Assembly: GCA_030272585.1 (NCBI GenBank)
Contig: BSYQ01000009.1
Location: 1 to 64,000 of the forward strand
DNA length: 64,000 bases
Source: Bryopsis sp. KO-2023
Taxonomy: Eukaryota; Chlorophyta; Ulvophyceae; Bryopsidales; Bryopsidaceae
Direction: 5' to 3'
The notes beneath the pieces were generated by a model. It was not told where the DNA came from. It saw only the letters and a list, made by a program, of their open reading frames with translations, and searched no databases. Made by a program: the position numbers and the translations under genes. This document shows, in pieces, positions 10,442-37,232 of the stretch (position 1 is its first letter; every line of letters starts with the position of its first letter).

Positions 10442-13048
10442 TCACCAGGCACTGCGCCCACTCTCATAACGCTCCAGTCGCTCCTGCCTATCCTGCTCCC
10501 GCCTGTCCTGCTCCCGCCTGTCCTGCTCCTGCTCAGCCTGCAGAGTCGGCTCCCGTCGCTGCTGGTGGTCTGATACCTCCACATGCTCCTCCACATGTTC
10601 TCCCACACTTCTGACTCTGATAACGCAAGATGTATTTTGTGCATGTTTGGCAAACGGGATCAGCTCCTGATTATCAGTTTCCCTATATACCATATCTGGT
10701 CCGATCGCGATTCTGTGAAATTTCAATGCTTCCTTTAGCCTGTGCAGGATCCAAGAGTTTTCTACCGCAACGTTTTGCAGGAACTGGCATAAGTGCGTCA
10801 TCGACATGAAACTGATCGGAAACTGGAGCTGGTAGTCTGGTGTGAAACTGTAAAACGTCCCTGCATTCATCAACCGCCTCTGTTCTTCAAACCTATCCCT
10901 TTCAGTGGGTGTACTGATCCTGGTCAGCATCGGTGAATCCCGTCTCTGCAAATTTCCAAGGTCGTCCGGTTTACAACGCAATCCATCAAAATCACGGGGC
11001 CAAGGTGTTGCACCATAGGCTCGCAGGAGTTCCTCCCGGGTCTGGTTCTGCCTCATGTTCGGGGGTGGCCCCCTCCCACCGGGTCTGTGTAAGGATTCGG
11101 CAGAATCAAAGGAGATTCAGGCAGACCTGCAGGCTTGCAGACTGGCAGTGATTGGGCTGACAGGTTAGAGCTGCAGGTTGACTGCTATGATTCTGCAGAA
11201 GCAGGAATGGTTCAGGTCCTTCAGACCCGCAGACTAAAGGACTGGTAGTCAGCAAATTGGCAGACTGACGAAGTGGCAGAGTAGTCGGGCTGACAGGGTT
11301 GCTGACGGCAGACAAGTGCTGGCAGCGTTGCAGAACGTGGGCTGCAGAGCTGGCAGGCACAAGGTTCTAGAAGGTCTTAGATGGCAGACTCAGGACCGCA
11401 GTACCATCCAAGTGGTCTGAGGCTGCATGTCATGAAAGGGGACTGAAAGGAACTTGGTAGTTTGATGGTCTGCAACACTGATGCAGACTGATGTTATGGC
11501 TTAGGATCAGTTTGGATCAGGGTTGGAAGAAACGGTATAAGTTGTTGGGGTTTGGACATTCTTATAACCTTAGTTTGGAACCTGATCTCTCCTTGAACCT
11601 TGCTAGGTTCAAGTGTTTCTCCCATGGTCGTTCAATAGAACGGCAGTTTCAGACTGGCAGACCGGCAGGGTCGCAGTCTTCGATGGACTTGAGTGGAAAA
11701 AGCGATCTGCAGGGGCAGAGTCGTTACAGTCTGCTCTGGTTCTGCCTCATGTTCGGGGGTGGCCCCCTCCCACCGGGTCTGATCTGGTTCTGCATCATGT
11801 TCGGGGGTGGCCCCCTCCCAGTGGTCCTGAGGACCCTGCCCCTGCCCGGGCCCACACCCATGCCTCCACCAAACGCCCAGGCTGATCCTGATGGCAATCC
11901 ACTTCCAGATGGCAGACCACTTCCAGATGGCAATCCACTTCCAGATGGCAGACCACTTCCAGATGGCAGACCACTTCCAGATCGCCACTCACCTGGTCCA
12001 GCTCCGGTTCTGGGACGTTGCCGAGGTGGCTCCACCTCCCCATCCTCGTATTCTGAATCTGATTCTGGTCCAGGACCAGGTCCGAATTCACCAATGAACT
12101 GGACTTCCTCCTCCTGATCGTGTTCCATTTCACCCCACCTGTCCTGGGGTTCCACCTGCACACACACCATGTTGCGGGTCAGGAATCTATTTTGAGACTG
12201 ATACACTGTGGACTTTGTTACCGAAAGTTTGAAATAATATGCACTCTGGAAATACTGATGGTCATGTTGGTTTAATTCATTGGTATCATTGATTGGACAA
12301 ACCTTGATTTCTGGTCCAGCAGACCTCGACCATGCTGATGCAGTTCCAGGTGGGAGTGTTCCAGGTGGGAGTGTTCCAGGTGCTGAAACTGGTGCAGGTG
12401 CTGAAACTGGTTCAGGTGCTGGTAGGGCGAGGACGAAGTCACCGCTGATTTCAGTGTTCATCAGGACCATCATTCGAAGTTCATCTCGCAACTGATCAAG
12501 ACTCTGGTGCAGATCCATGGCTTTAAGCAGAACTGCACCACACAACACTCACAAGTTCAGAGCATGTGAGAAACATGATTGAAATGAAGAACACACACAT
12601 AGATTCCTGACCTGTTTTCACTTCTATTGCCAGATGCTGATCTGAGTACAGTAGGGTAATGTTTTCCTCCTGGAGTCCGGGTGGGCAGCTCTGCATTTTC
12701 CCCAACAAGTGGTCTATCAATCTGAAACTGAACGGGTCGTCTTCTCGGGCCTGATCCCAGTAGGGCTGTCCCAGAACCGAAGCAATATTCAGAAAGGTAC
12801 CCTGCAAGACCGTCGAAACCCCTCACGTCCGACCTTCGAACCGCAACAGCAACAACAACAGCAAAAGCAAAAGCAAAAGCAACACCGACCCCTACCTTTT
12901 CCAAACCGAAATACCGACGCAGAGTCCGAGCGGCGAAAAAGAGTCTGTCCCTCTGCAAAACCGTATCTGAAGCGAATGCCCTGGGTATTTCGCCCCCGAT
13001 CTGATTCAGGCTGCGGGCGTAGGCCAGGGAAGGAAGGGGGGCTACCAT
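10442..13048 (-). CDS. Second gene of the hAT element, spliced, function unknown
   Basis: A frame-consistent model has three exons: 13048-12896, 12801-12612 and 12532-10442. The introns are 94 and 78-79 nt, with GT donors (GTAGGG, GTCAGG) and AG acceptors (CTTGCAG, GGTGCAG); the first also has a T-rich tract before the acceptor. Exon 3 is split by a solo LTR (11088-11728). Removing the LTR and one 5-bp duplication keeps the frame, giving about 595 residues with no internal stop. The product has a Pro/Ala-rich part, an acidic stretch near EEEVQF, repeats of GSGLPS and of GGRGPPPNMRQNQ, then a non-repetitive C-terminal part ending in Glu/Gln/Arg-rich sequence. I recognise no known domain. Gypsy-1 is inserted about 20 bp upstream of the ATG, cutting it from its promoter. 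It is convergent with the transposase and may be an accessory transposition factor (inference). Confidence 0.6.
11088..11728. mobile_element. Solo LTR, family X, copy 1
   Basis: 641 bp beginning TGTAAGGATTC and ending GAGTCGTTACA, with TG...CA ends and short inverted termini, flanked by the 5-bp duplication GTCTG (11083-11087 and 11729-11733). No coding sequence. A second copy in the opposite orientation lies at 25651-26300. TG/CA ends plus a 5-bp duplication are typical of a solo LTR left by LTR-LTR recombination. It sits in exon 3 of the second hAT gene; excising it with one duplication (646 bp) restores the reading frame. Confidence 0.88.
11736..11830. repeat. Coding tandem repeat, about 48 bp
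   Basis: Two adjacent copies here and a third before the solo LTR at 11042-11087 share TGTTCGGGGGTGGCCCCCTC. On the minus strand they encode repeats of GGRGPPPNMxQNQ in the second hAT gene. The solo LTR landed between copies. Confidence 0.85.
11889..11990. repeat. Coding tandem repeat, 18-bp unit
   Basis: Five to six copies of an 18-bp unit alternating CAATCCACTTCCAGATGG and CAGACCACTTCCAGATGG. On the minus strand it encodes the GSGLPS repeats in exon 3 of the second hAT gene. Confidence 0.9.
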
Positions 13049-13067
13049 AGCGGAACTGAACGGGAAA

Positions 13068-13255
13068 TGATACGAACGTTTCGAATTGTAGTACAGTCGT
13101 GGTACGGGTATTCGGGTTCTAGGGTGATAAGTTCAGAGAGAACTTGTAAAAATTAATTATCTCTGCGTGTCGAGTTTCACCCCTGTTCACTCGTTTCTCA
13201 AACTCAAGTGTGCACACAACCTCCCAGTGAAAGCCTAGCTAAACAGGGCCTAACA
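13068..13255 (+). repeat. Gypsy-1 5' LTR
   Basis: 188 bp, TGATACGAACG to GGGCCTAACA, matching the 3' copy at 23011-23198 at every base I compared. No primer-binding site starting TGG follows: the next bases are AACTTCGAAAAGATCG. The primer may be an internal tRNA segment or an unfamiliar tRNA. Confidence 0.96.
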
Positions 13256-13707
13256 AACTTCGAAAAGATCGACAGGGAATTTAGCAGTCGAGTTGCAAAA
13301 GATCAGGTCAACTAGGTCGAAGAAGGTTTCCTCTCGTGTCTGGAACCTACTTCGTGTTGCTGCGCACCAACTTTACGCTGGACGACACAGAACGCACGTT
13401 GCTGCGCCTGATCATTCCCTCGAAGATCGCGCAGGATCTGTAGATCCTCGGACTCTACGACCACACAGCACGGCGTAGTAGACCTTCAGTTCGTCGCAGA
13501 GTTGTCGACGCTAAACGTGGTTAAACGGAAAGGCAGACGAAGCGGAACCGCTAAGCGGACGTCTTTAGACGGAAACGGAGCTCCGCCAAAAGTTACGCTG
13601 CCAGAAATTGCGCGACAAAGAGTGACAAATTAGTCACGTGGATCACCGGCAAAGTGATTCACCGAACTGACACGTGATCAGCCCGCCGACAAGTCAAGAC
13701 ATCCACC
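13256..13707 (+). other. Gypsy-1 5' leader
   Basis: About 450 bp between the 5' LTR and the gag ATG. No long frame and no obvious primer-binding site is seen; it presumably holds packaging signals. Confidence 0.6.
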
Positions 13708-16671
13708 ATGGGGGACGACGAGCAGTTATTCCTGGAGTATGGAATCGAGGACGACAATCAAGAGCGCGATGCCCCAGCTGGCGCGCCGCTATATCCGATT
13801 ATCGTCGCGGGAGACATACCTGCTGTCGGACTGCCCTACCAGGCAGAAATGGGCCAGCCGCTACAAGCGTATGGCATACCCGTACAACCGGATATGGTGG
13901 AAGAGGGAGGCGATGAGGAAGCCGACAATGGCCCGCAATTTGATGAAGAGATGGACGAAGAGCCAGGAGTATTCATCAATCAGCAAACGCAGCACCTGCG
14001 CCAAAGCCAAGTGAATGTACATAATCAAACTCTGCACGTTCACAATGACGGTTTGCAGGAGCGCGATCTCCAACAATCGCAAGAGCGATTGTATAGCCAA
14101 TTGTCGGACGAGGCTGCCCACAGAACAGCCCAGGTCGCCCAACATCTTGATAGTCGGGTAGAGGGAGCTTGTTCAAGCATGGCTTCCCAAGTACATGATG
14201 TGTTGGACTCTACTCTACAGTCCCGCCATCACCAGATTGAAGGACAGCTCCATGAAAGGTTGGATGAGCGGATTCAAGATCTGGATGCTGCAGCCAAGGG
14301 AAGGCTCAGCCAAGTGGAAGCTGGCTTGGCGAATATCCGTGATGTCGCCCAGAAAGAGGTGGACGAAGCCAAAGAGGCTCAGCGGATATTGGCGGAACAA
14401 GTGGCCGACACGGACGAAAAAAGGAAGAAACTTGAAGAGGATTATGACCGGCAATATAACGACGCCCTTTGGGGGTTGGATACAGTCCAACAAGAACTGC
14501 GAGAGACGCAGGCGGAAATGGGTGCGGGTCAAGATAAACAGTTCAAGGAACTCGTTCGTGTTAAGTATGATCTCAAAGAGACGCAAGAAAAAGCGGAAAG
14601 TTTTCAGATACAGCATCATGCGGAAGTAGCCTATTTGTTAAAGGAGGCAGCGGCTGCGAAAGAAGCGGCGGCTAGATTACAAGCGGAAATGGAGGAGTTG
14701 AAAAGAAGTCAAAGTCGGTCTTCAAGGAGAAGCAGATCGAGAAGCTCAACAAGGAGCAGAGAGCCGCGGGAAATGTTGCAGGAAATGCTACAAGACCCGG
14801 AAACAGCGCAAGAGCTAAAGAAGGTGTTTGAGGATGTAGCGGACACAAAGTTCACGTCGAACTTTGAGTTTTGGCGGAAGAAAGATGCTGCAGCAGTTGC
14901 CACACACATGGCATCCGCCGCCCAACAAACACCTCTTGTGGCTGCTATGGCGGGAGCGGGAACCAGAACGGTGGCACAACCACCAAGCTTGGCCGAAGTA
15001 CAAGTTCCATTCGGTCAACCGCCCCAAACCTCATCCGGCTTTGCCCCGGATTCAGTAGGTTTCCCGCCAATACCACCAGTATTCCCGCGGGCAAATAGAC
15101 CGATTAGCCGACCTGCATCACCCCCAGTCATTATTCCTGGAGTGGGGCGAGGCAGTGCAATCAGCGGACAGGGAAATGTACCTAGGCCGACTGTGAGGCC
15201 TAGCGCTGTGTTTGGACAAACGCCAAATACAAGACCACCAGCGGTATTACAGCCAGTACAACCGCCACAGCGTACGCAGGCTTCTCCCGTGGTACAAACT
15301 GTCCCGCTGACAACTCCAACAACCACGTCACCCGAGCCACCTAGAACATTACCCATGCCACCACCAGCTTCTCAGCCAGTGTTATCACATCCATCAATGA
15401 TTTCACCACCCGGCTATTATGCCATGGGAGCATCATACATTCGGCCTTCTATCTTAGGTCACTCCGTGAATGTATACGGAGCTCCATCATCCGGAAACCC
15501 CTATGTGGGATGGGGATCCTATCCGCGTATTCCTCAACGCGCAGGCGGAGGAGGCGGAGGAGGCGGAGGTGGAGATGATGATGGTTCCGGTGATGGAAGT
15601 GGCGGAGGCCCATCGGACAGAAGTGGCCGTGGGTCTGCACCTGGACCACATATTGGTGGAGGAAGAGAAGGACCATCTAGGAACCCAGGAGGCGGTCCTG
15701 GAGATGGTGGTGGTGGAGGTGGCGGAGGAGGCGGACCTCCTGGTCCCCCAAGTGGGGACCCCGATTTTATGGGCTATGCACGTCCAGAAAATCGTTTGCT
15801 TCACATTCCCAATGCGGTCAAATTCCCGATGCCGAAACCGTATACTGGCGCTGGAGATCGCTGGATTCGGGATTGGCAGGCAGAACTCACCAACTTCTGC
15901 AAAGTGTATGATTTGGATGAGTCTGTTTGGCTTAAAGTATTCCGCACAAATCTCTCTGGTTCAGCCGCCACATGGCGGAATATGCAAGAGATGCGGATTC
16001 GGGAAGGAGTTCGTCCGATGTTCCAGGACTGGATTCAACTTGTGGAGGAATTAGCCATTGCTTTTGAGCCCACAAGGATGTCCGATGTTTCGCGTAGGAA
16101 GCTGCGGAAACTTCAACAAACAGGGAATGTTCGTTCCTACATCAACGCATTTCGGGATCTCATACTCAGAATTCCGAATATGACGGAGGAGGAACAGTAC
16201 CTACAGTTTGTTGACGGATTGAAACCCCAGATCCGACATCAAGTTGTTACAATGGTGACAGAAGGAGTGGAAGCGGCGATAGTCACTGCCGAAAGAATCG
16301 ATTCGTTGGGTGGCCAATCTCAAAACAACCGCGGACGTGGTCGCGAACGAGGGCGATGGAACTGGAATTGGAAAAACAAGCCCAAAGCTGACCAGAACCA
16401 GCAGATGCAGGGTCAGCAACCGCAACCACCACCTCCACCCCAAGATCAAAATCAACAAATGGGAGGAGGCAACAGAGGTGGAGGCGGCCGTGGCCGCGGA
16501 AGAGGCGGAAGACGAGGTGGCGGACGAAATCGAGGTGGTGGCGGAAGGCAGCAACAAGGAGGAGCTAGAGGCGGAGGCGCATGTTACATCTGCGGCGAAG
16601 TGGGCCATGGTTTTGGGAAATGTCCCAAAGGTCCAACTTTTCAAAAGTGGCTAAAAGATCACGCCGCATAG
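13708..16671 (+). CDS. gag: Gypsy-1 Gag polyprotein
   Basis: 987 residues, long for a gypsy Gag. The first 330 residues are acidic and then strongly helical, likely coiled coil (about 120-330). A Ser/Arg stretch follows (about 340-360), then a Pro/Thr-rich linker (about 400-590) and Gly-rich runs (about 615-690). The retrotransposon Gag domain is at about 700-880, with WIRDWQAELTNF, SAATW and the YLQFVDGL segment. After a Gln/Pro/Gly/Arg-rich region there is one zinc knuckle, C-x2-C-x4-H-x4-C, at about 959-972 (CYICGEVGHGFGKC). It forms the particle and packages RNA. The ATG at 13708 is in a fair context (CCACCATGG). It ends in TAG and overlaps pol, which is in the -1 frame. Confidence 0.95.
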   Translation: MGDDEQLFLEYGIEDDNQERDAPAGAPLYPIIVAGDIPAVGLPYQAEMGQPLQAYGIPVQPDMVEEGGDEEADNGPQFDEEMDEEPGVFINQQTQHLRQSQVNVHNQTLHVHNDGLQERDLQQSQERLYSQLSDEAAHRTAQVAQHLDSRVEGACSSMASQVHDVLDSTLQSRHHQIEGQLHERLDERIQDLDAAAKGRLSQVEAGLANIRDVAQKEVDEAKEAQRILAEQVADTDEKRKKLEEDYDRQYNDALWGLDTVQQELRETQAEMGAGQDKQFKELVRVKYDLKETQEKAESFQIQHHAEVAYLLKEAAAAKEAAARLQAEMEELKRSQSRSSRRSRSRSSTRSREPREMLQEMLQDPETAQELKKVFEDVADTKFTSNFEFWRKKDAAAVATHMASAAQQTPLVAAMAGAGTRTVAQPPSLAEVQVPFGQPPQTSSGFAPDSVGFPPIPPVFPRANRPISRPASPPVIIPGVGRGSAISGQGNVPRPTVRPSAVFGQTPNTRPPAVLQPVQPPQRTQASPVVQTVPLTTPTTTSPEPPRTLPMPPPASQPVLSHPSMISPPGYYAMGASYIRPSILGHSVNVYGAPSSGNPYVGWGSYPRIPQRAGGGGGGGGGGDDDGSGDGSGGGPSDRSGRGSAPGPHIGGGREGPSRNPGGGPGDGGGGGGGGGGPPGPPSGDPDFMGYARPENRLLHIPNAVKFPMPKPYTGAGDRWIRDWQAELTNFCKVYDLDESVWLKVFRTNLSGSAATWRNMQEMRIREGVRPMFQDWIQLVEELAIAFEPTRMSDVSRRKLRKLQQTGNVRSYINAFRDLILRIPNMTEEEQYLQFVDGLKPQIRHQVVTMVTEGVEAAIVTAERIDSLGGQSQNNRGRGRERGRWNWNWKNKPKADQNQQMQGQQPQPPPPPQDQNQQMGGGNRGGGGRGRGRGGRRGGGRNRGGGGRQQQGGARGGGACYICGEVGHGFGKCPKGPTFQKWLKDHAA

Positions 16672-19600
16672 AGGGGACTTCACTCCATGCGGCCAGAAGG
16701 AAAAGAGCCAGACGCCGAAGATACAAGCATCGCAAACGTCAAAAGCTCCGGGAGTCACGAGAACGAGAACGGAAGGGGAAACAGAATAAGAAGCCAGAGA
16801 AAGAGTCAAGTAATCCCGCCCAGAGGGCTGAACATCCGCTAATGAGTACGAAACTTGGGGACAAAAAGCGGATGGACGATTCAAGTACGGTCGCCCAAAG
16901 CATTTCCGACAAAGATTTGCCGGAAAGTGTTGGTTCAGTACGTGAAGACTCTGGAAGTTCCTCCGAAGATAGCAACCTGGAATCTGTCCTACCTTGTGGA
17001 GAGAAACAGGCTTCGGAAGGAAGTGTTAAAAGTTCAAGCCGGACTAGTCCAAGAGTTCCGTTTGACGCCGGTGCAAGAGGGGTACCGGACCGTAGAAAAG
17101 GAACAGCGGAAGGAGAAGGGGATTACCTCCAAGACAGTTTTAATCCGTTAGTTCAAAATAAACACCTCAAGTTCATGGGATATGAGCTTAGAGGGCGGAT
17201 AGGGGGAGCGGCAATTTCCGCTTATGTAGACTGTGGAGCTACGGAAAATTACGTGGCACAAAAACTGGTGGACAAGTTTGGGTTAGAGTTCTCCTCGTGT
17301 AATAAGACAGTTTCGTTAGCGAATGGGGCTGTTTGCACTGTGGACAAACGATGTGGGAACATCAAGATGCAGCTGGGTGACTACAAAACCCAGTTTTCTG
17401 CAGATGTATTCCCTCATCTCACATATGACATTGTGTTAGGGTTACCGTGGCTCATCGCTAATAACCCGTCCATAGACTTTGCACAAGGAACCATCAACAT
17501 CCGTCAGGGAAATCGTTGGATTACAGTACCGGTTAAAGAGAAGCCGACTGATTATCTCCAACTGACGGAAGAAACTATTCCCATTCTGTCCCACAAGAAA
17601 GTATTCCGCCATATAGGCAAACAGGCCGACAAAGATAGCCTGGCCTATTTGGTGGTGGTTCGTGAATCTGACCCTATGGATAGCAACCATTTGATGCAAT
17701 ATCCATATGAGGGCCTCCAGGTTGATAGTCTAAAGACCTCGGCCGACAACCACGCACCAATACAGACGGATCTTCCACGGCTTTTGCATGACAAGATGCA
17801 TCCGGCAATCCGTTCTGTGGTGGAGGAATACAGCCATGTTTTTCCCAAAGATCTCCCACCTGGCATCCCTCCAGTCCGTAAGGGTCACGAATTCAAAGTT
17901 GACCTGGAGGATGAGAGTATGAGCCCAATCCATCGTCCGTTGTACAAACTTTCTCCAGCAGAATTGGATGAAGTTCGGACACAGGTGGACTACCTACTGG
18001 AACAACGGAAGATACGGCCGTCAGAGAGTCCCTGGGGTGCTCCCATACTCTTCGTTCCAAAGAAAGACGGCGGATTGCGGATGTGTGTTGATTATCGTTG
18101 GATCAACAAATACACAATCAAAAACCGCTATCCACTTCCACTTCCGGAGGAATTGATGGATCGGCTCGCTAAAGCAAAGATCTACACGAAGATCGACCTA
18201 CGTTCGGGGTACTGGCAATTTCCAGTTCGCCCGAAGGATACTGCAAAAACCGCCTTCCGAACAAGATATGGACATTTCGAGTTTCTCGTCTGTCCTTTCG
18301 GAATGTCCAACTGTCCAGCCCAGTTTCAGACAATGGTGCAGGATTTGTTGGGCGAGTTTTTGGACCACTTTGTGGTTGTTTTCATTGACGACATCTTGGT
18401 GTTTTCCAACTCAGTGGAGGAACATGTCGATCATTTGAAACAAGTATTCGAACGCCTTGCAAAGTATAAACTGTACGCCAAAGCAAGCAAGTGCGAAGTA
18501 GGGGTCAGCGAGACCGACTATTTGGGGTATCATCTGTCGGGAAAAGGCCTGCAGCCAATGAGTGACAAAGTGCGGGCTATACAAGAGTGGAAGGAGCTGA
18601 GCTCAGTGACGGATGTGCGAAGTTTTTTGGGCATGGTATCTTACTATCGTAAGTTTATACCAGAGTTTGCTCGAATTGCAGGACCCTTGCATGATCTCAT
18701 CAAAAAGAATCATGTGTGGACGTGGGGACCTCTGCAACGGGAAGCTTTCGGCAAACTCAAGGAAAAGATTACCCGCACACCGATCCTTCTCCTACCCGAT
18801 TCGCTGCTCAAGTACACCGTAATAACGGACGCATCAGGGACTGCATATGGAGCAGTTTTGTGTCAGGACCATGGAAAGGGGCTACAACCAATAGCTTACC
18901 TTTCAAGACGACTAAAACCAGCTGAGACACGATATTCCGCTTACGAGCGAGAGCTGGGGGCTATAGCATATGCGCTTAGCCAATGGCGACATTATCTCGA
19001 AGGAGCGCCTGGGGAGGTTACGGTTATGACGGACCATCAGCCGTTAACCTACTTCATGACCCAAGCAACAATGTCGCGGACCCAAGCCCGATGGTGGAGG
19101 TCAGGGTTTTTTTATTCCATAGGTCCAACAATCGTCTATGTTCCTGGCAAAGCCAACGTTTTGGCGGATGCGTTATCCCGAAGCCTTCCTGATGCTAAGG
19201 ATCAAATTCATGCTTTGTCGACCTGGGTGGTAGATGAAGCGGATGCATGGAAGACCGCTCTTGCAGAAGATCAAAAACTGCAAGCGGAAGTCAAGAAAAT
19301 CCAAGAGGGTAAACCCACGAAACTTTCGCTAGAGGATGGCTGGTTGTATTATCAAGCAACTCCCACCTCAGACAAAGTATTAGTGGTACCGAACGGATAC
19401 CGGGAAAAGGTGATGGGGGAATTCCATGATGTGCCGAGTGCCGGCCATGCAGGCGCGGCCCGCACCATGGATGTGCTAAAGCGATACTATTGGTGGAAAG
19501 GAGTTGGCAAGGATGTTCAAGCATATGTGCGGACATGTCCTGTCTGTCAGCGGACGAAAGCTGATACGACAAAGCAAAAAGGACTTTTGCAGCCACTCCC

Positions 19601-20756
19601 AATTCCGTCAGCAAAGTGGGAACAGATTACCACTGACCTCGTGACTGATTTACCAAAGTCACATTGGTTTACCGCCATTGCGGTATTTGTTGATCGGTTA
19701 ACCAAGTACGTTCGCTTTGCACCGTGCACCAAGGAAATAACCGCCCCAGAATATGCGAAGTTGTTTGTGGACAAAATCTACAAACACTATGGCCTTCCCA
19801 AAGTGATCATCTCAGATCGTGACCCCAGATTCACAAGTTCCTTCTGGAGGTCGATGTTTTCACTGTTGGGAACCCAACTCCGAATGAGCACCGCCTATCA
19901 TCCACAAACGGATGGGCAGTCTGAAGTAACAATTCGGGTGTTGGAGGATTTCTTGCGGCCTTTTGTGGAACGGTACCCAGATCGTTGGGTAGAGTTTTTG
20001 GCGACAGCAGAATTCGCTGCCAATAACTCCCGCAATGTATCCACAGGCTATGCCCCAGCGCATTTGTTGTATGGGCAGCATATGGGCCAGATTACTGTGC
20101 ATAGGAAGTTGACGGCAAAAGAGGAGTCCGAAATGGCAACCGAAATGGTCAAGAGGATGGACGAACAACTGCAGCAGGCAAAGCAGCAGTATGCAACCGC
20201 ACAAGAGCGGATGTGTGTCCAGGCCAACAAAAAGCGACGAGAAGTGACGTTTAAAACGGGGGATGAAGTATTGGTGAAGAGTGCCTTCATACCATTGCAC
20301 TCCCTACAAAAGATCCCACCTAAACTTCGTCGACGTTTTGTCGGACCATTCGTTGTGGACAAGGTCATATCCACAGTGGCCTACCGTCTCAAACTTCCAC
20401 CCCATTGGACTATACATGCCACCTTCCATGTTTCCAAGCTGAAGGCATACAACCGCTTGTCGGAAGATGATAAGCGGGAGGTGGAACTTCCCGAAGGGGA
20501 ATTGGTGGATGGCACCATCGAATACGAGGTGGAGCGTATTCTGCGGGACCGAGGAGCCTCCAACCGTAAGGAGTACTTGGTTTCGTGGAAGGGCTTTGAT
20601 TTGATGGAAGCCACCTGGGAGCCAGAAGCCCACCTGGCCAATGCCAGCGACCTTTTGGCTGAGTACTTGAAGAACCGCACGCGCTTGCCGACTAAAGAAG
20701 AAGTCCGATCAGAACGGGCAAAGAGACGGACAAGGCGGCGGGGGTTAGCTCTCTAG
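16581..20756 (+). CDS. pol: Gypsy-1 Pol polyprotein with chromodomain
   Basis: Frame -1 to gag with an overlap of about 90 nt. The first ATG of the frame is at 16581, but entry by -1 frameshifting is also possible; I see no canonical slippery heptamer in the overlap. Order: a basic segment; protease near residue 217 (YVDCGATENY, with DCG in place of the usual DSG or DTG); reverse transcriptase with FIDD near 601; RNase H near 750 (TDAS); integrase with the H/H-C/C finger at about 949-985 and D, D, E near 1018, 1079 and 1115; and a chromodomain at about 1313-1365 (EYEVERIL ... YLVSWKGF ... TWEPE). The chromodomain marks it as a chromovirus, a lineage that targets chromatin. The product copies and integrates the element. 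Confidence 0.95.
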   Translation: MLHLRRSGPWFWEMSQRSNFSKVAKRSRRIEGTSLHAARRKRARRRRYKHRKRQKLRESRERERKGKQNKKPEKESSNPAQRAEHPLMSTKLGDKKRMDDSSTVAQSISDKDLPESVGSVREDSGSSSEDSNLESVLPCGEKQASEGSVKSSSRTSPRVPFDAGARGVPDRRKGTAEGEGDYLQDSFNPLVQNKHLKFMGYELRGRIGGAAISAYVDCGATENYVAQKLVDKFGLEFSSCNKTVSLANGAVCTVDKRCGNIKMQLGDYKTQFSADVFPHLTYDIVLGLPWLIANNPSIDFAQGTINIRQGNRWITVPVKEKPTDYLQLTEETIPILSHKKVFRHIGKQADKDSLAYLVVVRESDPMDSNHLMQYPYEGLQVDSLKTSADNHAPIQTDLPRLLHDKMHPAIRSVVEEYSHVFPKDLPPGIPPVRKGHEFKVDLEDESMSPIHRPLYKLSPAELDEVRTQVDYLLEQRKIRPSESPWGAPILFVPKKDGGLRMCVDYRWINKYTIKNRYPLPLPEELMDRLAKAKIYTKIDLRSGYWQFPVRPKDTAKTAFRTRYGHFEFLVCPFGMSNCPAQFQTMVQDLLGEFLDHFVVVFIDDILVFSNSVEEHVDHLKQVFERLAKYKLYAKASKCEVGVSETDYLGYHLSGKGLQPMSDKVRAIQEWKELSSVTDVRSFLGMVSYYRKFIPEFARIAGPLHDLIKKNHVWTWGPLQREAFGKLKEKITRTPILLLPDSLLKYTVITDASGTAYGAVLCQDHGKGLQPIAYLSRRLKPAETRYSAYERELGAIAYALSQWRHYLEGAPGEVTVMTDHQPLTYFMTQATMSRTQARWWRSGFFYSIGPTIVYVPGKANVLADALSRSLPDAKDQIHALSTWVVDEADAWKTALAEDQKLQAEVKKIQEGKPTKLSLEDGWLYYQATPTSDKVLVVPNGYREKVMGEFHDVPSAGHAGAARTMDVLKRYYWWKGVGKDVQAYVRTCPVCQRTKADTTKQKGLLQPLPIPSAKWEQITTDLVTDLPKSHWFTAIAVFVDRLTKYVRFAPCTKEITAPEYAKLFVDKIYKHYGLPKVIISDRDPRFTSSFWRSMFSLLGTQLRMSTAYHPQTDGQSEVTIRVLEDFLRPFVERYPDRWVEFLATAEFAANNSRNVSTGYAPAHLLYGQHMGQITVHRKLTAKEESEMATEMVKRMDEQLQQAKQQYATAQERMCVQANKKRREVTFKTGDEVLVKSAFIPLHSLQKIPPKLRRRFVGPFVVDKVISTVAYRLKLPPHWTIHATFHVSKLKAYNRLSEDDKREVELPEGELVDGTIEYEVERILRDRGASNRKEYLVSWKGFDLMEATWEPEAHLANASDLLAEYLKNRTRLPTKEEVRSERAKRRTRRRGLAL

Positions 20757-21085
20757 ATGACACAGATTGATGTGGGGATGGGAACGATGGTGAGAGGATG
20801 GTATCAGTTCACCCACAATCAAATACATCTGGAGGAGCAAGCTAATCAGTACACAGTCAAGGGGTTGAGGGTAATTACAAAGCGGGCTAGAATCTGACTG
20901 AGGCGACTCTCAATAGAGGAGGTCAGCCATCGGTGACAAGTGGGTGACTCTACCACTTGTATATATACCCACTTCTTCAACCCTCCGCACCATTTTTCAC
21001 TTTCGAGCAACCCAGTAAACGGAGCCGAGTTCAGCAAAGAGCGAAGTGTGCGTGTGTGTGTTTGCGGAGAGACCGTCCAGCAGCT
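20757..21085 (+). promoter_or_regulatory. Internal promoter region before gypsy-1 third gene
   Basis: A TATA box (TATATATA, 20960-20967) stands about 125 bp before the first good ATG of the third gene at 21086. Downstream lies GTAAACGGAGCCGAGTTC (about 21016). A nearly matching word, GTAAACGGAGCGAGCTC, lies in the same place in gypsy-2. This suggests the third gene is transcribed from its own promoter. The interval has no other long frame. Confidence 0.6.
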
Positions 21086-22849
21086 ATGTCTTCCAAAGGC
21101 AACCGTGAAAGCAAGGATGAGCAAATCACGCGTTTGCGAATGGAACGAGACAAATATGGAAAGGAATTAGCGGAAGCTGTGGAAGTAAGCAACAAGGCTT
21201 TGACGGCAAACACAGCATTGCTCCAGCAATTGACGGAAGTAAACAAACTCGCTCAAGAAGGAGTAGGCCATCGAGATGAACTGGCCGACAAACTTGCCGA
21301 ACAAGAAGCACTGATGAGGGAAGCGGCTCAAAAACATGCGGAAGAGCGGGCTAAAGAGGAGGCCGACTACCACCAGAAATTTCGGACATTCCAACAAGCA
21401 ATCAGTGATGCCAAAGTGAATGCACGGGGATTAGCTTCTGAGTTGAAGGAAGCCCGGACAACAATCAAAACGCTGGAAGAGGAAAACCAGGCTGTCCGAC
21501 AAGAGAAAATCTGCATCACTTCGGAGTTGGGATCCGTGAAAAACAACCTCCAAACTGCGCTGAAGGATCAGTCCTTCTATATCAAAGAAAACAAGGAATT
21601 GCGGGAAGCTCAGACAAAACGCTTCCAAGCGCTGAAGCAGTTGGAGAAAGAGGTGGCGGCCCTCAAAGCGGAAAAAGCGGCGGACAAACGTGGTGAGCGC
21701 GTCGCGCTCGAGACCAAGATCATGATGACGGAGCTGCTAGCATCCAGAGCAGAGGCGGCCAGGCTTCGTCAAATCTTGGAGAAATTCCCACAAGATTTGG
21801 CGGCCATGGCCACTGGAGTCGTCCAAGGGAAGCTCCACACTCTGTCCGATCAAATGTCGCTGTTGCATAAGGGGAAATTTCAAGATGTGGTAGACATCCA
21901 CAAGATAAAAGAAATCACCCTGACGCATACAAGCTTGCCGCCCGCGAATGAACTGAAGCATGTCCGAGACTGGGATGGGAGACTCACAAGGGAGGCCACG
22001 AAGATTGCAAGAATGATGGGCCAACCACCATCGCAGCCGACAAACGAGGACGACAGCAGCGATGACGACAGTGATTCCTCGGAAGATGAACAACACCAAA
22101 AAGAAAAGGAAGCTGCGGAGGCAGCCAAGGCAGCGGCCGACATTCTGAAGGCCGACAAATTGAAGTCCGACAAAGCTAAGGCCGACAAGGCTAAGTCCGA
22201 CAAAGCTGCAGCCGACAAGTTGAAATCCGACAAAGCTGCAGCCGACAAAGCAGCAGCCGCCAAAGCTAAGACGGACACGATCAAGCCCAAGCCCAAGCCA
22301 ATCAAGACGACAACACCGACCCGCAAGAGAATGCGTCCATCAAAGATTGCAAAGGAGCTGGAGGAGACACTGCTCAAACGTCACAAGGCAAATGGTGATC
22401 CTCGGTTGTTGGGCCGCACATGTTATCATTGTGCAGGACGACAACTGCATGTAGGAATTCCTGCAGATTGTCAGTCCCACTTTGTGTGCCCCAAACATTG
22501 GACCAGACACCAAGTGACGGAGAGAATGATCCAGCGATGGAAGGACGACAAGTCTGTGGTTCCGCTCAACATGACTGTGACGGAACTGCATCTCGGCAAG
22601 CGAATGCCGGACTTCCTTCCCCTTGCACCACCACCACCAGCCGACGCCATCGACAATTTGGTTGTTCCATGCCAAATTTGTAATATCCGCAAATGTGGAT
22701 TTCCGTCCGGCTCGAGCACAAAGGCTCTCCGGTCGACGATGACGACAATCCTTCATGAGATGTGGGATCCAGAGCAGGACATTGACTCAGACATTGACTC
22801 TGATGTTGCTGGTGGCGGCGGTACTGTTGGACCAAGCCAAGCCGACTAG
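21086..22849 (+). CDS. Gypsy-1 third gene: coiled-coil protein with RING-like Cys/His cluster
   Basis: The frame is open from 20957, but the first proper ATG is at 21086 (MSSKGNRESK), giving about 587 residues. The first 300 residues are charged heptad-like helix, probably coiled coil. An acidic Ser/Asp stretch and a run of ADK/SDK repeats follow (about 330-395), then a basic segment. The C-terminal part has C-x2-C (CYHC, about 445), C-x2-H-F-V-C-x2-H-W (about 461-472) and C-x2-C (CQIC, about 528). This order matches cross-brace RING-type zinc binding with a long final spacer. It occupies the env position but shows no signal peptide or membrane segment, so it is not an envelope protein. Gypsy-2 has an equivalent gene with the same cysteine pattern. 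Function unknown. Confidence 0.85.
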   Translation: MSSKGNRESKDEQITRLRMERDKYGKELAEAVEVSNKALTANTALLQQLTEVNKLAQEGVGHRDELADKLAEQEALMREAAQKHAEERAKEEADYHQKFRTFQQAISDAKVNARGLASELKEARTTIKTLEEENQAVRQEKICITSELGSVKNNLQTALKDQSFYIKENKELREAQTKRFQALKQLEKEVAALKAEKAADKRGERVALETKIMMTELLASRAEAARLRQILEKFPQDLAAMATGVVQGKLHTLSDQMSLLHKGKFQDVVDIHKIKEITLTHTSLPPANELKHVRDWDGRLTREATKIARMMGQPPSQPTNEDDSSDDDSDSSEDEQHQKEKEAAEAAKAAADILKADKLKSDKAKADKAKSDKAAADKLKSDKAAADKAAAAKAKTDTIKPKPKPIKTTTPTRKRMRPSKIAKELEETLLKRHKANGDPRLLGRTCYHCAGRQLHVGIPADCQSHFVCPKHWTRHQVTERMIQRWKDDKSVVPLNMTVTELHLGKRMPDFLPLAPPPPADAIDNLVVPCQICNIRKCGFPSGSSTKALRSTMTTILHEMWDPEQDIDSDIDSDVAGGGGTVGPSQAD

Positions 22850-22989
22850 AGAGACTGACCAAGCGAGAGACAGTGGTTTCGGGAGTTGGTAGTGGGCTGA
22901 GTGTTAGTTGGACTTTTATTTTTTTCTGTTGATTGACTTTTGGGGTTTTCTTTTTCATGTGTTCACGCACAAGGGTGAGGGCACCCTTT

Positions 22990-23010
22990 GGGGGGGGGGG
23001 GGGAAGTAGT
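22990..23010 (+). promoter_or_regulatory. Gypsy-1 polypurine tract
   Basis: A run of about 14 G followed by AAGTAGT ends directly at the 3' LTR (23011). This is the place and composition expected of the primer for plus-strand DNA synthesis. Confidence 0.8.
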
Positions 23011-23198
23011 TGATACGAACGTTTCGAATTGTAGTACAGTCGTGGTACGGGTATTCGGGTTCTAGGGTGATAAGTTCAGAGAGAACTTGTAAAAATTAAT
23101 TATCTCTGCGTGTCGAGTTTCACCCCTGTTCACTCGTTTCTCAAACTCAAGTGTGCACACAACCTCCCAGTGAAAGCCTAGCTAAACAGGGCCTAACA
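23011..23198 (+). repeat. Gypsy-1 3' LTR
   Basis: 188 bp, apparently identical to the 5' LTR; followed by the duplication GGAAA at 23199-23203. Confidence 0.96.
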
Positions 23199-23203
23199 GG
23201 AAA

Positions 23204-23439
23204 TGACGGAACGCAGAGCCGCGAGAAACCGATAACTGGTCGGTGCAGGAACTGATGACGGAACGCAGATCCGCTAGAAACTGAAAACTGCTCGATGCAG
23301 GAACTGATGACTTTCTCGTAGAGCAGCGACAAACTGAACACAACGGCAAGTATGAAAGGCCACAAAAACGAAACGAGCCTGTGCGCAAACCTCCCAGGGC
23401 TGTCGATATATTCGGAGCAGTTCCGTACAGTACGTAATA
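23204..23439 (-). promoter_or_regulatory. Upstream region of the second hAT gene
   Basis: Once gypsy-1 is removed, this segment lies directly upstream of the ATG at 13048 and should hold its promoter and 5' UTR. It contains a duplicated unit of about 52 bp (23204-23307) starting TGACGGAACGCAGA. No TATA box stands out. Confidence 0.45.
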
Positions 23440-25650: not shown

Positions 25651-26300
25651 TGTAACGACTCTGCCCCTGCAGATCGCTTTTTCCACTCAAGTCCATCGAA
25701 GACTGCGACCCTGCCGGTCTGCCAGTCTGAAACTGCCGTTCTATTGAACGACCATGGGAGAAACACTTGAACCTAGCAAGGTTCAAGGAGAGATCAGGTT
25801 CCAAACTAAGGTTAGGTTAAGTTACAAGAATGTCCAAACCCCAACAACTTATACCGTTTCTTCCAACCCTGATCCAAACTGATCCTAAGCCATAACATCA
25901 GTCTGCATCAGTGTTGCAGACCATCAAACTACCAAGTTCCTTTCAGTCCCCTTTCATGACATGCAGCCTCAGACACCTTGCACGGTACTGCGGTCCTGAG
26001 TCTGCCACCTAAGACCTTCTAGAACCTTGTGCCTGCCAGCTCTGCAGCCCACGTTCTGCAACGCTGCCAGCACCTGTCTGCCATCAGCAACCCTGTCAGC
26101 CCGACTACTCTGCCACTTCGTCAGTCTGCCAATCTGCTGACTACCAGTCCTTTAGTCTGCAGGTCTGAAGGACCTGAACCATTCCTGCTTCTGCAGAATC
26201 ATAGCAGTCAACCTGCAGCCTAATCTGTCAGCCCAATCACTGCCAGTCTGCAAGCCTGCAGGTCTGCCTGAATCGCCTTTGATTCTGCCGAATCACTACA
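25651..26300. mobile_element. Solo LTR, family X, copy 2 (inverted)
   Basis: 650 bp reading TGTAACGACTC to GAATCACTACA, the reverse complement of the copy at 11088-11728 with scattered differences. It is flanked by the 5-bp duplication GAAGT (25646-25650 and 26301-26305). Two copies with independent duplications and shared ends define the family boundaries firmly. Confidence 0.9.
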
Positions 26301-28198: not shown

Positions 28199-28855
28199 TG
28201 AAACGAGGCTACTTTTTTCAAGGTCCCCTCGCCCTCCTAGAGGAGGACGAGTGCCTTCCTCAAGCGTCTCGTTAGATAGAACTTCCTTACAAGAATAAAG
28301 TTATAAAGAAGGTACAACGACCTTTTCTGTTAGTCTTTTAGCGCTCTACGAGGTAGTTTGGGATAGAGCCGAGGGTGGCTGACGCATGTGGGTTCACGAG
28401 TAAGACAGATTAGACCCAGAGTTTGGGGCATGCGTCAGCGTACTACACTTAGGGGTACTTAAGAGGCCCACTCGTTGTTTTGACACTTATAGTTACTTTG
28501 TAAGAACTCGGGATTCGTGGGATTGGTGTGTTCCCGCTTGTGTGTGTGTTTGTGTGTGTGTGTGTGTTAAGTGTTTGCCTGACGCAATCACTTCCCAACC
28601 CAAGTGCTCTAGTAGCGTTCACAACCGCGCTAGCTAGAGAGTTGTCTAAAGCAACAAACCCCACAAGTATACTTGCGTTAGCCAGCAAGTTATCACGAAT
28701 CCAACCAACACATCCGACCACTATTGCGTCACCCACAAGCTTCACTATCATTTTCCTTCCACACTCTTATACCCTAGCGCCACAGCGCATCAAACCCTTG
28801 TTCCTGTCGACGTGTCACTATTCACTAGGAATTCACACATCTCCTTGCCACCTCA
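28199..28855 (-). repeat. LARD-3 LTR, copy A (with solo LTR inside)
   Basis: TGAAACGAGG to about CCACCTCA; 229 bp once the 428-bp insertion at 28328 is removed, the same as copy B. The inner edge is uncertain: copies A and B run on identically, and copy C is cut at 56668 by the next element. Confidence 0.7.
28328..28750 (+). mobile_element. Solo LTR of the gypsy-2 family
   Basis: 423 bp, TGTTAGTC to ACTATCA, the reverse complement of the LTRs at 45186-45607 and 54859-55280 with a few substitutions. It is flanked by the 5-bp duplication TTTTC (28323-28327 and 28751-28755). It lies inside LTR A; LTR B lacks it, so it arrived after the array formed or before only one copy was duplicated. Confidence 0.93.
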
Positions 28856-28984
28856 ACTGTGAACGTGCCCCTATTCCACGAGAACTCACACGTCCAATTG
28901 ACAACTCGACTTTGATGGCTGCCACATCATCATCCATCAAACTCCATCGAGCTTGGTTGTAGTCGTGACTCCAAGGGTGTCGCA

Positions 28985-29112
28985 CTACTGCACCTCTGCA
29001 CCTCTGCACCTCTGCACCTCTGCACCTCTGCACCTCTGCACCTCTGCACCTCTGCACCTTTGCACCTCTGCACCTCTGCACCTCTACACCGCTGCACCGC
29101 TGCACCGCTGCA
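28985..29112. repeat. Minisatellite, 8-bp unit CTCTGCAC
   Basis: About ten copies of CTCTGCAC, then GCTGCACC variants. The matching array in unit B (36580-36710) has fewer copies, one of the few differences between the units. Confidence 0.9.
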
Positions 29113-29525
29113 CGCTGCACTCCTACACGCCGCACTCTCGCACGCTGCTCCTACACGTTGCACTCTTGCAACCTTCCCTTTTTCAGCTGCAGGAAGCATG
29201 GCAACTACTCTTGTAGTTCCAGCTCGAGTGCTGCGATAACCAACCGTTACATTCCTCCCCACCAGGTTGGCAGTAAGTTCCAACACTGCCGTGGAGAGCA
29301 TGTCTCAAATAAAACCCGTTGCATAAAGTATCACAATCCATAAGGCATCTCACAATCCAAATCAGAATATCTTTCAGTGTCCAAACACGAAAAGAGTACG
29401 AGACTGGCATAATATTTTCTTTCGCTTTGTCCATAAAATCGAGAAAATCATCTCTCTATTTCAAACTGAAATATCCTTTCTCTGCTCTTGAGTTTCCAGA
29501 GCTCCTCTTCTTGCAATATTTGGAT

Positions 29526-29576
29526 TGCTGCTGCTGCTGCTGCTGCTGCTGCCGCTGCTGCTGCTGCTGTTGCTGC
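29526..29576. repeat. CTG microsatellite in unit A
   Basis: About sixteen CTG triplets with CCG and TTG interruptions; the same array is at 37117-37167 in unit B. Confidence 0.9.
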
Positions 29577-31663
29577 ATCTAACGCAACCTCGTTTATCAT
29601 CACTTGAGACTCCCATGGATTGCTGCTGCTGCACCATGCTGCTTCCATTGCCCTCAAGGGCTACCAGAAAATTAACCAACTCTGTCCACTATTCTTCCCT
29701 CTCTGGAATTATGTGCTCCCACCAACGAGGCACCTGAAAATAAAATAAAATATCCAGAGGGTTGCTCTCATGTTTTCTTTTTTTTTTTCTTTTTTTTACT
29801 TGTGCTCCCTTCATTGGGGCACCAAATGAATGCCTGAAAATTTCCATAGCATTTTTTCCCTTCAGAAATTTTGCTGCCTTCTGTGGGTATCCACAAAATA
29901 TTCACTCTCACTCTGTTCCTTCCCTTTTCTTTCATTCCATACTCTCTCGTTCCCCATTCATCAAGCCCCACTGTTCCAAGTGGAACTCAAAATCATATGT
30001 TCTTTTTTCCAGTCATCAAGCCTCACTGTCCCAAGTGAGACTCAACATCAGATGCTCAAAACAACATCAGCCCCGAGACTGATGTCCCAAAAATAAACCA
30101 TACACTTGCTGCACTAAACTCGTGTTGAAAAACCCGCTGAAAGCCCCCTCCCCACCAGCTTTAGGCAGTCCCTTGCCTAACAATAGGATTCAAAACTGAG
30201 TGAGGGGCAATCAATGTTGCCACGAGTGATCACAACGATATAAACAATCATCAATATCGAAGGGAATGTTCATAAACAACCCACACTCACGGCATTGCAC
30301 CGCCGTCTTGTGCAACGGAGATAAGGAAGCAATATACTCAGGGAGATTGAGTAGAAGCTTTGTGTGATTCTTCAGTGAGGAATCTTCACTTCAGTGGCAG
30401 TGGATCTCGCCATTCCTCTGAACCTCCAGGCACATGCAAGCCTTGCATGTTCGTCTTCCAAGGTAATCCAATTCCGTTCTCCGTATCGATTGTAGCACAA
30501 TCGTTGCATGCAGTGTTGTATTCTTGAACATCTTCACTGAGCTTGGGAAAATCTGACATCACCAATGGTGATCCACCATTCACTTTGCTGCTAATGGCCT
30601 GCAGGCTGCAGCCAGTCAAAGCGATAAATAAGGCGTACGTGTGCTCGTTCAGGCTTGAGAGCTCACGGGATGTAAGATAAATCCCATATATTTTATCAAT
30701 AAAGTTCACACCACCATATTGCCTACAGAAGAAGCTCCAGTTAGCTCTACTCCCTTTGCAATCTTCCTACACTTAAGTCATGGGGGAAGTTTTCTCAACC
30801 CCTACGTGAAACACCGGTACGGCTGTAACACTACGGGAGCTACCCGTTTGACGCTAAAGTGTGTGTGGATATTATCCAAGCGCCATTGACGTCTGATGGG
30901 TGTTTCTCCGAAAGGCGGCGGCAAACGCTCGACCGCTTTTTGGAGGTATCCTAAAATTCTTGAAATCTGGAGGGGCCCTCCGTCGAGTCGGCTCTCCTCA
31001 AACCTTCTACAGGTGGCTCAAGGTTCTAGTCGTGCACTGACCTTAGGTGGCCCATATGGCTCTTCCTAAGCTTCGCAATTGGTTCAGAATTGGGAGGGAA
31101 CCCATCCCCACTTCCCTTTTCTTGGTGACAAATGGCCTATGGCTCTTTCTGCCCCCTCAATTGCGTTACAAGTGGCCCAAGGCTCGCTTGTTCTTTGTGC
31201 GTTCTTGCTTGTCTCAACTCCTTGAAACTTGGTACAGGCGGCCTAGCCTGAGCACTTTCTCATTCATCAAGGGGATCTCTCGCTCAACCCCTTTTTTTCT
31301 CCGCGGCTGCACCACAAGTCCTGAGAGTGGCCGTAAGGCACTTCTCACCTCGGTATCACAGGAACTCTGTCCTCCGTCTCTTTCTTCAATCCCGCCACCA
31401 GTCCTGAGAGTGGCCAAAGGCACTTGTCTCTGAGCGGTCGGGTTGTTTCTCCATATGTATTTTACTGTTCATTCTTGATTGCTCTCTTGTCGCTCCATGT
31501 CCGCGATAGTATCATCTCTCTCGGCATGCAGTTGCATTCTTGCCACAAATAAAGTGGGTGTTCTCTGATAGAACTCCATAGTCAATGCTTTTGGCTGCAA
31601 CTCTTGATGCTCCTTTGTTGTGGGCTGTGGCATCAGCCCCTCTTTTCCAACTCCTTGTTGTCA

Positions 31664-36217: not shown

Positions 36218-36446
36218 TGAAACGAGGCTACTTTTTTCAAGGTCCCCTCGCCCTCCTAGAGGAGGACGAGTGCCTTCCTCAAGCGTCTCGTTAGATAGAA
36301 CTTCCTTACAAGAATAAAGTTATAAAGAAGGTACAACGACCTTTTCCTTCCACACTCTTATACCCTAGCGCCACAGCGCATCAAACCCTTGTTCCTGTCG
36401 ACGTGTCACTATTCACTAGGAATTCACACATCTCCTTGCCACCTCA
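36218..36446 (-). repeat. LARD-3 LTR, copy B (middle)
   Basis: 229 bp, TGAAACGAGG to CCACCTCA, uninterrupted. It serves as 5' LTR of unit A and 3' LTR of unit B in the minus orientation. Confidence 0.72.
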
Positions 36447-37232
36447 ACTGTGAACGTGCCCCTATTCCACGAGAACTCACACGTCCAATTGACAACTCGA
36501 CTTTGATGGCTGCCACATCATCATCCATCAAACTCCATCGAGCTTGGTTGTAGTCGTGACTCCAAGGGTGTCGCACTACTGCACCTCTGCACCTCTGCAC
36601 CTCTGCACCTCTGCACCTCTGCACCTCTGCACCTCTGCACCTTTGCACCTCTGCACCTCTGCACCTCTACACCGCTGCACCGCTGCACCGCTGCACCGCT
36701 GCACGCTGCACTCCTACACGCCGCACTCTCGCACGCTGCTCCTACACGTTGCACTCTTGCAACCTTCCCTTTTTCAGCTGCAGGAAGCATGGCAACTACT
36801 CTTGTAGTTCCAGCTCGAGTGCTGCGATAACCAACCGTTACATTCCTCCCCACCAGGTTGGCAGTAAGTTCCAACACTGCCGTGGAGAGCATGTCTCAAA
36901 TAAAACCCGTTGCATAAAGTATCACAATCCATAAGGCATCTCACAATCCAAATCAGAATATCTTTCAGTGTCCAAACACGAAAAGAGTACGAGACTGGCA
37001 TAATATTTTCTTTCGCTTTGTCCATAAAATCGAGAAAATCATCTCTCTATTTCAAACTGAAATATCCTTTCTCTGCTCTTGAGTTTCCAGAGCTCCTCTT
37101 CTTGCAATATTTGGATTGCTGCTGCTGCTGCTGCTGCTGCTGCCGCTGCTGCTGCTGCTGTTGCTGCATCTAACGCAACCTCGTTTATCATCACTTGAGA
37201 CTCCCATGGATTGCTGCTGCTGCACCATGCTG

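Follow-up and report, generated by a model that had tools for sequence, protein, structure and literature searches.

The locus and its third gene

The window analysed here, which comprises the first 64,000 nucleotides of contig BSYQ01000009.1 of the green alga Bryopsis sp. KO-2023 (C9:1-64000 in the genome of 91.09 Mb and 28 contigs that was searched for copies), carries two long terminal repeat (LTR) retrotransposons, gypsy-1 and gypsy-2, each of which encodes a third protein, hereafter ORF3, in an open reading frame (ORF) located after pol and in the same sense. In gypsy-1, ORF3 occupies 21086-22849 of the forward strand (587 codons; open frame 20948-22849, first ATG at 21086), and its counterpart in gypsy-2 occupies 45803-47617 of the reverse strand (604 codons). 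An earlier note on this DNA had described a third gene of 587 residues following gypsy-1 pol, which the open frame and its first ATG confirm; the start that it gave, 20757, immediately follows the pol stop codon, and the interval 20757-21085 is spacer, with ORF3 beginning at 21086. Both elements present the features of Ty3/gypsy chromoviruses, namely gag, protease-reverse transcriptase-RNase H-integrase, a C-terminal chromodomain and LTRs, of which gag, pol and the chromodomain were recovered in both by Pfam searches. A sense ORF between pol and the 3' LTR is kept in many copies (these were selected as best matches rather than at random, and no search aimed at elements lacking ORF3 was made), and ORF3 is a genuine accessory gene in a group of green-algal chromodomain Ty3/gypsy retrotransposons.

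A Cys/His module shared by three ORF3 families

At the C-terminal end of both proteins, a motif scan and the residue positions bear out the order of cysteines and histidines that had been noticed before, C-x2-C, C-x2-H-x-V-C-x2-H-W and C-x2-C. In gypsy-1, this zinc-type module, C2-x12-C-H-C-H(W)-x57-C2, lies at 22421-22681 on the forward strand, and its putative ligands, numbered from the initial methionine, are C446, C449, C462, H465, C468, H471 (followed by W472), C529 and C532. In gypsy-2, it lies at 45971-46267 on the reverse strand, with C451, C454, C476, H479, C482, H485 (followed by W486), C546 and C549. A third ORF3 family found in the same genome (family 3), 35-47% identical to gypsy-1 ORF3 over the matched pieces and 47% identical in the zinc module, carries the same motif with the spacers of gypsy-1 (12 and 57), those of gypsy-2 being 21 and 60. 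The six reading frames of the window contain only two C..H..C..H matches, both in the ORF3s, and the core motif arose in 4 of 20,000 residue-shuffled versions of gypsy-1 ORF3 and in 0 of 20,000 of gypsy-2 ORF3.

Absence of the cysteine pattern from further copies had been named in the earlier note as a finding that would speak against its reading; all eight ligands and the tryptophan are kept in 74 of 76 further loci (8/8 for gypsy-1, 49/49 for gypsy-2 and 17/19 for family 3). In the two others, the family-3 loci L047 and L055, the first six ligands and the tryptophan are kept and the last pair is not reached within one open frame. When the gypsy-1 and gypsy-2 proteins were compared by BLASTP, only the zinc region was aligned (E 0.002, all other pieces having E >= 17), in line with the claim that gypsy-2 keeps the pattern in an otherwise very different protein. 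In addition, a gypsy-1/family-3 profile aligned with gypsy-2 ORF3 in hhalign (E 1.4e-4, probability 53%), over 102 columns in which all eight ligands coincide. Taken together, the BLASTP match and the in-register alignment indicate that the C-terminal modules of gypsy-1/family-3 and gypsy-2 ORF3 are very probably homologous, and the N-terminal parts of the two groups share heptad character only. The proposal that conservation is limited to the metal ligands and the HW pair was correct in that these are kept, but slightly too strict, since weaker similarity extends across the module beyond the ligands and family 3 is 47% identical there.

Copy number and purifying selection

The gypsy-1 ORF3 query returned at least 112 matches in the genome (70 of 191 candidates scored), and that of gypsy-2 at least 70, all 97-100% identical (70 of 379 candidates scored). 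Near-identical ORF3 pieces were also observed inside longer frames at C2:1216712-1218454 (1273 aa) and C10:1273083-1274255 (891 aa), which are perhaps fusions or readthrough copies.

Among eight gypsy-1 copies (the window copy and L002-L008; L060, two codons shorter, was excluded), ORF3 shows 40 synonymous and 12 replacement variants, with a ratio of replacement to synonymous polymorphism (pN/pS) of 0.09. For gypsy-2, the window copy and 28 further loci out of 29 (L022 was excluded because its length differs) show 85 synonymous and 38 replacement variants, with pN/pS of 0.13, and the ratio is 0.15 both in 16 of 20 lower-ranked copies (four of other lengths were excluded) and in all 45 copies. 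By part, these 45 copies give 0.07 for the zinc module, 0.14 for the coil and 0.23 for the linker, the zinc module having 0.06-0.07 across gypsy-1 and gypsy-2. The gypsy-2 pol tail gives 0.07 at 27 of the same 29 loci versus 0.15 for ORF3, which suggests that ORF3 is somewhat less constrained than pol. These ratios of 0.09-0.15, biased downwards by the choice of copies according to ORF3 protein score, argue strongly that ORF3 is under purifying selection. The selected function postulated earlier is thus supported, both by pN/pS values far below 1 and by the persistence of the eight ligands.

The N-terminal part, the basic patches and the envelope question

The N-terminal region of gypsy-1 ORF3 (residues 1-300; 21086-21985, forward strand) is coiled-coil-like in its heptad periodicity. 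Over residues 1-140, the 3.5-residue periodicity was reached by only 1, 2 and 1 of 1000 shuffles in gypsy-1, gypsy-2 and family 3, respectively, and over residues 1-300 it is clear in gypsy-1 (1 of 1000 shuffles) but not in gypsy-2 (97) or family 3 (62).

Considering its position, ORF3 might be thought a degenerate or unusual envelope or movement-type protein, since env-like ORFs occupy the same place in plant elements (PMC7264820). However, neither protein has a membrane segment, the best 19-residue Kyte-Doolittle means being 0.71 in gypsy-1 and 1.01 in gypsy-2, and the traits of a retroviral-type envelope are missing from ORF3 (the signal peptide was judged from hydropathy alone). The disfavoured envelope-type reading is consequently very improbable, and the non-envelope character claimed before is borne out by hydropathy. 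Basic patches resembling nuclear localisation signals (NLS-like patches) are found N-terminal to the zinc module in all three families, close to it in gypsy-1 and family 3; that of gypsy-1 is RKRMRPSK, residues 413-420 (22322-22345, forward strand).

Relation to known folds and protein families

RING fingers have the consensus C-x2-C-x9-39-C-x1-3-H-x2-3-C-x2-C-x4-48-C-x2-C, and in LIM domains the central ligands are spaced 2-2-2 and are of the types H, C, C and C. The combination of a coiled coil with a zinc module is reminiscent of TRIM-type proteins, and the ligand order C, C, C, H, C, H, C, C is near that of RING, so that ORF3 could be conceived as a RING-like ubiquitin ligase or ligase adaptor removing a host restriction or silencing factor. 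The first spacers of ORF3 do fit the RING consensus, but the sixth ligand is a histidine and the last spacer is 57 or 60. Furthermore, no RING profile matched the ORF3s in Pfam at E up to 1 or the C-terminal modules at E up to 10 (in the module search, filters remove most matches above ~0.1). Both AlphaFold models, based on two-sequence alignments, are of low confidence (mean predicted local distance difference test scores of 44.5 and 44.7) and lend no support to a cross-brace with two zinc ions or to the ligase. The cross-brace RING site proposed in the earlier note is thus unproven. As for LIM, the 2-2-2 central spacing fits, the ligand types are C, H, C, H in place of H, C, C, C, and no LIM profile in Pfam matched the ORF3s or their C-terminal modules.

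Searches of wider scope gave a similar picture. Gypsy-1 ORF3 had no match in Pfam and none in the PDB by sequence; gypsy-2 ORF3 had four Pfam matches at E 0.038-0.84, all under the cut-off, and in the search with its module a Vps36 NZF-type zinc finger at 0.06, likewise under it; and the family-3 copy L055 had two under the cut-off, DUF5620 (8.5e-4) and ATG16 (0.0036), both in the coiled coil. NCBIfam returned weak coiled-coil matches far under the cut-offs (SMC, an SMC-related protein and one other; best 3.1e-5), and PHROGs a single match, to an HNH endonuclease family (E 0.067), in a 21-residue stretch surrounding the last gypsy-1 CxxC (window 22640-22700). The module profile matched 14 PDB chains at E 0.65-4.7; the top one, HIV-1 gp41, was aligned over a C..H..HW-like stretch and was judged to be a chance match. 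When the C-terminal regions were used in three protein-set searches (100, 56 and 535 candidates), none was found at E <= 1, a null that says little on other algae, as these sets may hold few algal genomes. A scan of IMG/VR gave 28 pattern matches, none of which was confirmed as a relative, and no description of this protein family was recognised in the published literature searched. It had been stated that no described family shows this arrangement, and that a clear match to a known one would overturn the reading; the profile search with the C-terminal regions returned no known family over the cut-off, and neither Pfam and NCBIfam nor the protein-set and viral searches contradict that statement.

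The pol-ORF3 spacer and a candidate internal promoter

The gypsy-1 pol-ORF3 spacer (20757-21085, forward strand) is conserved with that of family 3 (L045) and contains an inverted repeat with 8-bp arms, ACAAGTGG-N9-CCACTTGT (20936-20960), which runs into a TATA box, TATATATA (20960-20967), a candidate internal promoter located 126 nt 5' of the ORF3 ATG. In gypsy-2, the spacer, taken together with the pre-ATG part of the ORF3 open frame (47618-48066, reverse strand), contains TATAA at 47733-47737, 120 nt 5' of the ATG. The gypsy-1 and gypsy-2 spacers have no alignable similarity to each other (score 23 versus a shuffle maximum of 25). In the one element scanned per family, the sole TATA[AT] of the spacer stands at -126 (gypsy-1, with an overlapping second at -124), -117 (family-3 L045) and -120 (gypsy-2) from the ATG, and the gypsy-2 box is invariant in the 27 further copies compared. 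The repeat-TATA block is kept in 7/7 further gypsy-1 loci (L002-L008) and in 17/19 family-3 loci; the two exceptions, L046 and L052, have ORF3 frames that are altered at the 5' end. In family 3, the repeat reads ACAAGTGA-N9-TCACTTGT, with both arms changed relative to gypsy-1 and the pairing kept.

The spacer is also constrained. Between pol and the ORF3 open frame, gypsy-2 shows 26 variants in 362 nt (28 copies), versus 85 variants in 411 synonymous sites of ORF3 (29 copies) and 35 in 252 of pol (27 copies). Between gypsy-1 and L045, 164 of 200 aligned sites 5' of the TATA box are identical (82%) and 68 of 95 3' of it, where gaps are frequent, versus approximately 56-57% identity at synonymous sites of the adjoining pol tail (pS 0.43-0.44). 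Owing to this constraint and to the sole TATA box at -117 to -126, it is likely that ORF3 is served by an internal TATA promoter in the pol-ORF3 spacer.

Several observations count against this promoter and, with it, against the regulatory role considered below. A TATA[AT] within -131 to -112 appeared in 1044 of 20,000 shuffles of the gypsy-2 spacer, and with a chance of about 5% the position alone is modest evidence. The gypsy-1 and family-3 spacers are homologous and hence not independent; no inverted repeat of >= 6 bp is found in the gypsy-2 spacer; and an 8-bp inverted repeat occurred somewhere in 14 of 300 shuffled gypsy-1 spacers (~5%). The chance of about 5% for a gypsy-2 TATA[AT] in that range leaves room for another account, compatible with any function of the protein, in which the TATA boxes are fortuitous and the full-length RNA yields ORF3 through splicing or re-initiation. 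In plant elements, Bagy2 among them, splicing has been reported for env-like ORFs (PMC7264820). This account is nevertheless somewhat unlikely, given that the constraint on the spacer exceeds that on synonymous sites and that the repeat-TATA block is conserved.

Within the gypsy-1 LTR, at 13129-13153, a 6-bp inverted repeat, AAGTTC-N5-GAACTT, is followed directly by GTAAAAAT. This layout resembles the repeat-TATA block ahead of ORF3 and possibly reflects a shared operator.

Divergence of ORF3 and pol

In the family-3 copies compared with gypsy-1 (one copy along both pol and ORF3, two along ORF3 and the pol tail), the two genes differ in their distances. The pol proteins (that of family 3 being L081 plus L045) are 89% identical, with pS of 0.18-0.59 per 150-codon window, whereas the ORF3 proteins are 36-46% identical, with pS of 0.72-0.86 in each of four windows, values that misalignment at 40% identity raises somewhat. 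The zinc module, with pS of 0.82 at 47% identity, is at the same level as the rest of ORF3. Shared divergence would give matching synonymous distances, so that the higher pS of ORF3 points to an exchange of ORF3 or pol. Fast protein evolution was considered as the sole cause and rejected, since the synonymous sites are saturated too and fast protein change alone is insufficient. Judged by these distances, ORF3 behaves as a separately inherited cassette, and ORF3 or pol would have been exchanged between lineages. The pS along pol (window 16569-20756) is itself uneven, its lowest value being in the first window, which partly overlaps gag, and this suggests that pol may be a mosaic.

The divergence of ORF3 between families would also suit a host-directed role such as that of the ligase. 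However, the saturated synonymous distance suggests an old cassette and not simply fast amino-acid change, and a RING-like ligase or adaptor is, on the whole, an unlikely identity for ORF3.

Possible roles of ORF3

The reading favoured here, albeit tentatively, is that ORF3 is a nuclear, self-associating regulator or counter-defence (anti-silencing) protein, which is preferred over the ubiquitin-type counter-defence factor and over a component of the particle. A TATA promoter of its own, within the pol-ORF3 spacer, would drive transcription of ORF3, the protein would self-associate via its N-terminal coiled coil and enter the nucleus through the basic patch, and its C-terminal zinc module would bind element DNA or chromatin, or a host silencing factor. 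By this means, it may raise or maintain the element's expression, driven by the LTR, the internal promoter or both, in a manner similar to foamy virus Tas or to VANC, and the divergence of ORF3 beside a closer pol would reflect the swapping of cassettes with different specificities. Further points detract from this regulatory reading, in addition to those raised for the promoter: no zinc fold is predicted in either AlphaFold model, no DNA-binding family matched ORF3 in the profile searches, the NLS-like patch of gypsy-2 lies ~200 residues ahead of the zinc module, and the copies behind the pN/pS values are the top matches by ORF3 protein score, although the lower-ranked set shifts the ratio only slightly.

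A role in particle assembly had also been put forward. As a structural partner of Gag, ORF3 could help to assemble particles, to package RNA or to bring the pre-integration complex into the nucleus; its coiled-coil character, the many near-identical copies of the families and a selection of the same order as that on the pol tail (0.15 versus 0.07) would agree with such a part. On the other side, Gag already has a capsid domain and, weakly matched in Pfam, a zinc knuckle, and a structural protein needs no constrained spacer with a likely promoter of its own. Assembly is possible, but nothing found in the sequence points there, and the Gag-partner reading is judged quite unlikely. The basic NLS-like patches and the likely internal promoter speak more for a regulatory gene.

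A bolder form of the regulatory reading would make ORF3 a self-contained mobile regulatory cassette, in which a promoter with an operator-like palindrome at its TATA box is joined to the gene of a zinc protein with a coiled coil, the founder of a new family, whose targets are this promoter and the LTR. Such a cassette would move between families independently of pol, as a plug-in module for anti-silencing or transactivation, with parallels in Tas and VANC. In this full form, the proposal is rather doubtful. Should a regulatory or counter-defence function of ORF3 be borne out, the gene would illustrate the way in which a successful LTR element evades host silencing in a green alga. For biochemistry, it offers a handle in its eight putative metal ligands and tryptophan, its many near-identical copies and the clear selection, with three families to compare in one genome and a candidate promoter of its own.

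Comparison with other elements

Retrotransposons of the plant lineage often carry extra genes after pol, mostly of unknown function. Plant LTR retrotransposons such as Athila and Bagy2 carry additional sense ORFs between pol and the 3' LTR (aORF-3S), which share with ORF3 their position, orientation and conservation across many copies (PMC7264820). The plant proteins are env-like, some with transmembrane segments, whereas the algal ORF3 has none and carries the Cys/His module (PMC7264820). Retand elements likewise encode an extra protein between pol and the 3' LTR, for which a regulatory role was suggested, but their ORFs are antisense and contain a TRP28 domain (PF04195), while the algal ORF3 is sense and belongs to no Pfam family over the cut-off (PMC11963269). 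In LTR retrotransposons of bdelloid rotifers, a non-envelope ORF3 after pol also occurs, and the same ORF3 types are found on different element lineages; these types are env-like, GDSL esterase, DEDDy exonuclease, transmembrane and coiled-coil, and no zinc motif is mentioned, the word zinc being absent from the text (PMC5408684). In the charophyte Klebsormidium nitens, KnitGypsy-Dnmt3, also a gypsy element of the green lineage, carries an additional chromatin-acting domain that is under selection; this domain, a methyltransferase, lies within the pol ORF, in contrast to the separate algal ORF3 (PMC5890265). Only six methylase exon matches were found in the present genome, unlike the many Dnmt3 copies of a Klebsormidium-like case.

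VANDAL elements are DNA transposons, unlike the LTR elements that carry ORF3. An anti-silencing protein of the VANC type is expected to bind non-coding sequences of its own element and to bring about a loss of methylation, and the gene product of a foamy-virus-type internal unit to activate both the internal promoter and the LTR. Their VANC proteins in Arabidopsis are element-encoded, as ORF3 is, and exert sequence-specific anti-silencing, related proteins having different target spectra; the two are set side by side by description, not by sequence (PMC5735166). In foamy viruses, the use of an internal promoter, together with tas, is established, and the likeness, drawn from layout and not from the Tas sequence, lies in a TATA promoter, in the alga a candidate one, inside the element and 5' of a 3' gene (PMC3798896). 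The foamy virus promoter is in env, whereas the algal candidate is in the pol-ORF3 spacer (PMC3798896).

Organisation of the elements and their surroundings

Both elements have identical LTR pairs with target site duplications and thus look complete and recently inserted. In gypsy-1, all features being on the forward strand, the 5' LTR (13068-13255; 188 nt, duplication GGAAA) is followed by the gag open frame (13678-16671, Retrotrans_gag) and the pol open frame (16569-20756, with protease, reverse transcriptase, RNase H, integrase and chromodomain), and the 3' LTR (23011-23198; 188 nt) has the same sequence as the 5' one. In gypsy-2, on the reverse strand, the 5' LTR (54859-55280) precedes the gag (52062-54719) and pol (48067-52110) open frames and the 3' LTR (45186-45607; 422 nt, duplication GACGA). 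The two elements are 54% identical in pol and 42% in the capsid part of gag. No match reaching the gathering score was found in Rfam for 13000-23300.

A CCCTAAA telomere array extends from window position 1 to ~3700, and both young elements are subtelomeric. In keeping with a green-algal host, the genome gave 107 chlorophyll-binding matches, counted exon by exon; when one such exon was compared with the PDB, a long chain named LHCI-2 (9vfj) ranked first, ahead of Bry-Lhcb1 (8hlv), in which Bry stands for Bryopsis, and of Lhcb chains of 9jzr and 9k7v. The chlorophyll-binding matches led to the rejection of an oomycete host, for which the silent elicitin search is an uninformative control. Gypsy-1 is flanked by inverted repeats at 11170-11728 and 25651-26219 (399 and 164 nt, 97% and 100% complementary), which suggests that it was inserted between or inside copies of another repeat. 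Between 28326 and 28753 lie segments with 98% complementarity to portions of the gypsy-2 LTRs; these segments probably represent another LTR or a solo LTR in inverse orientation. Identical direct-repeat stretches of 300 nt, 7.6 and 8.2 kb apart, are present at 28751-29939 and 36342-38150, and arrays of an 8-bp tandem unit lie within these regions at 28934-29169 and 36525-36760.

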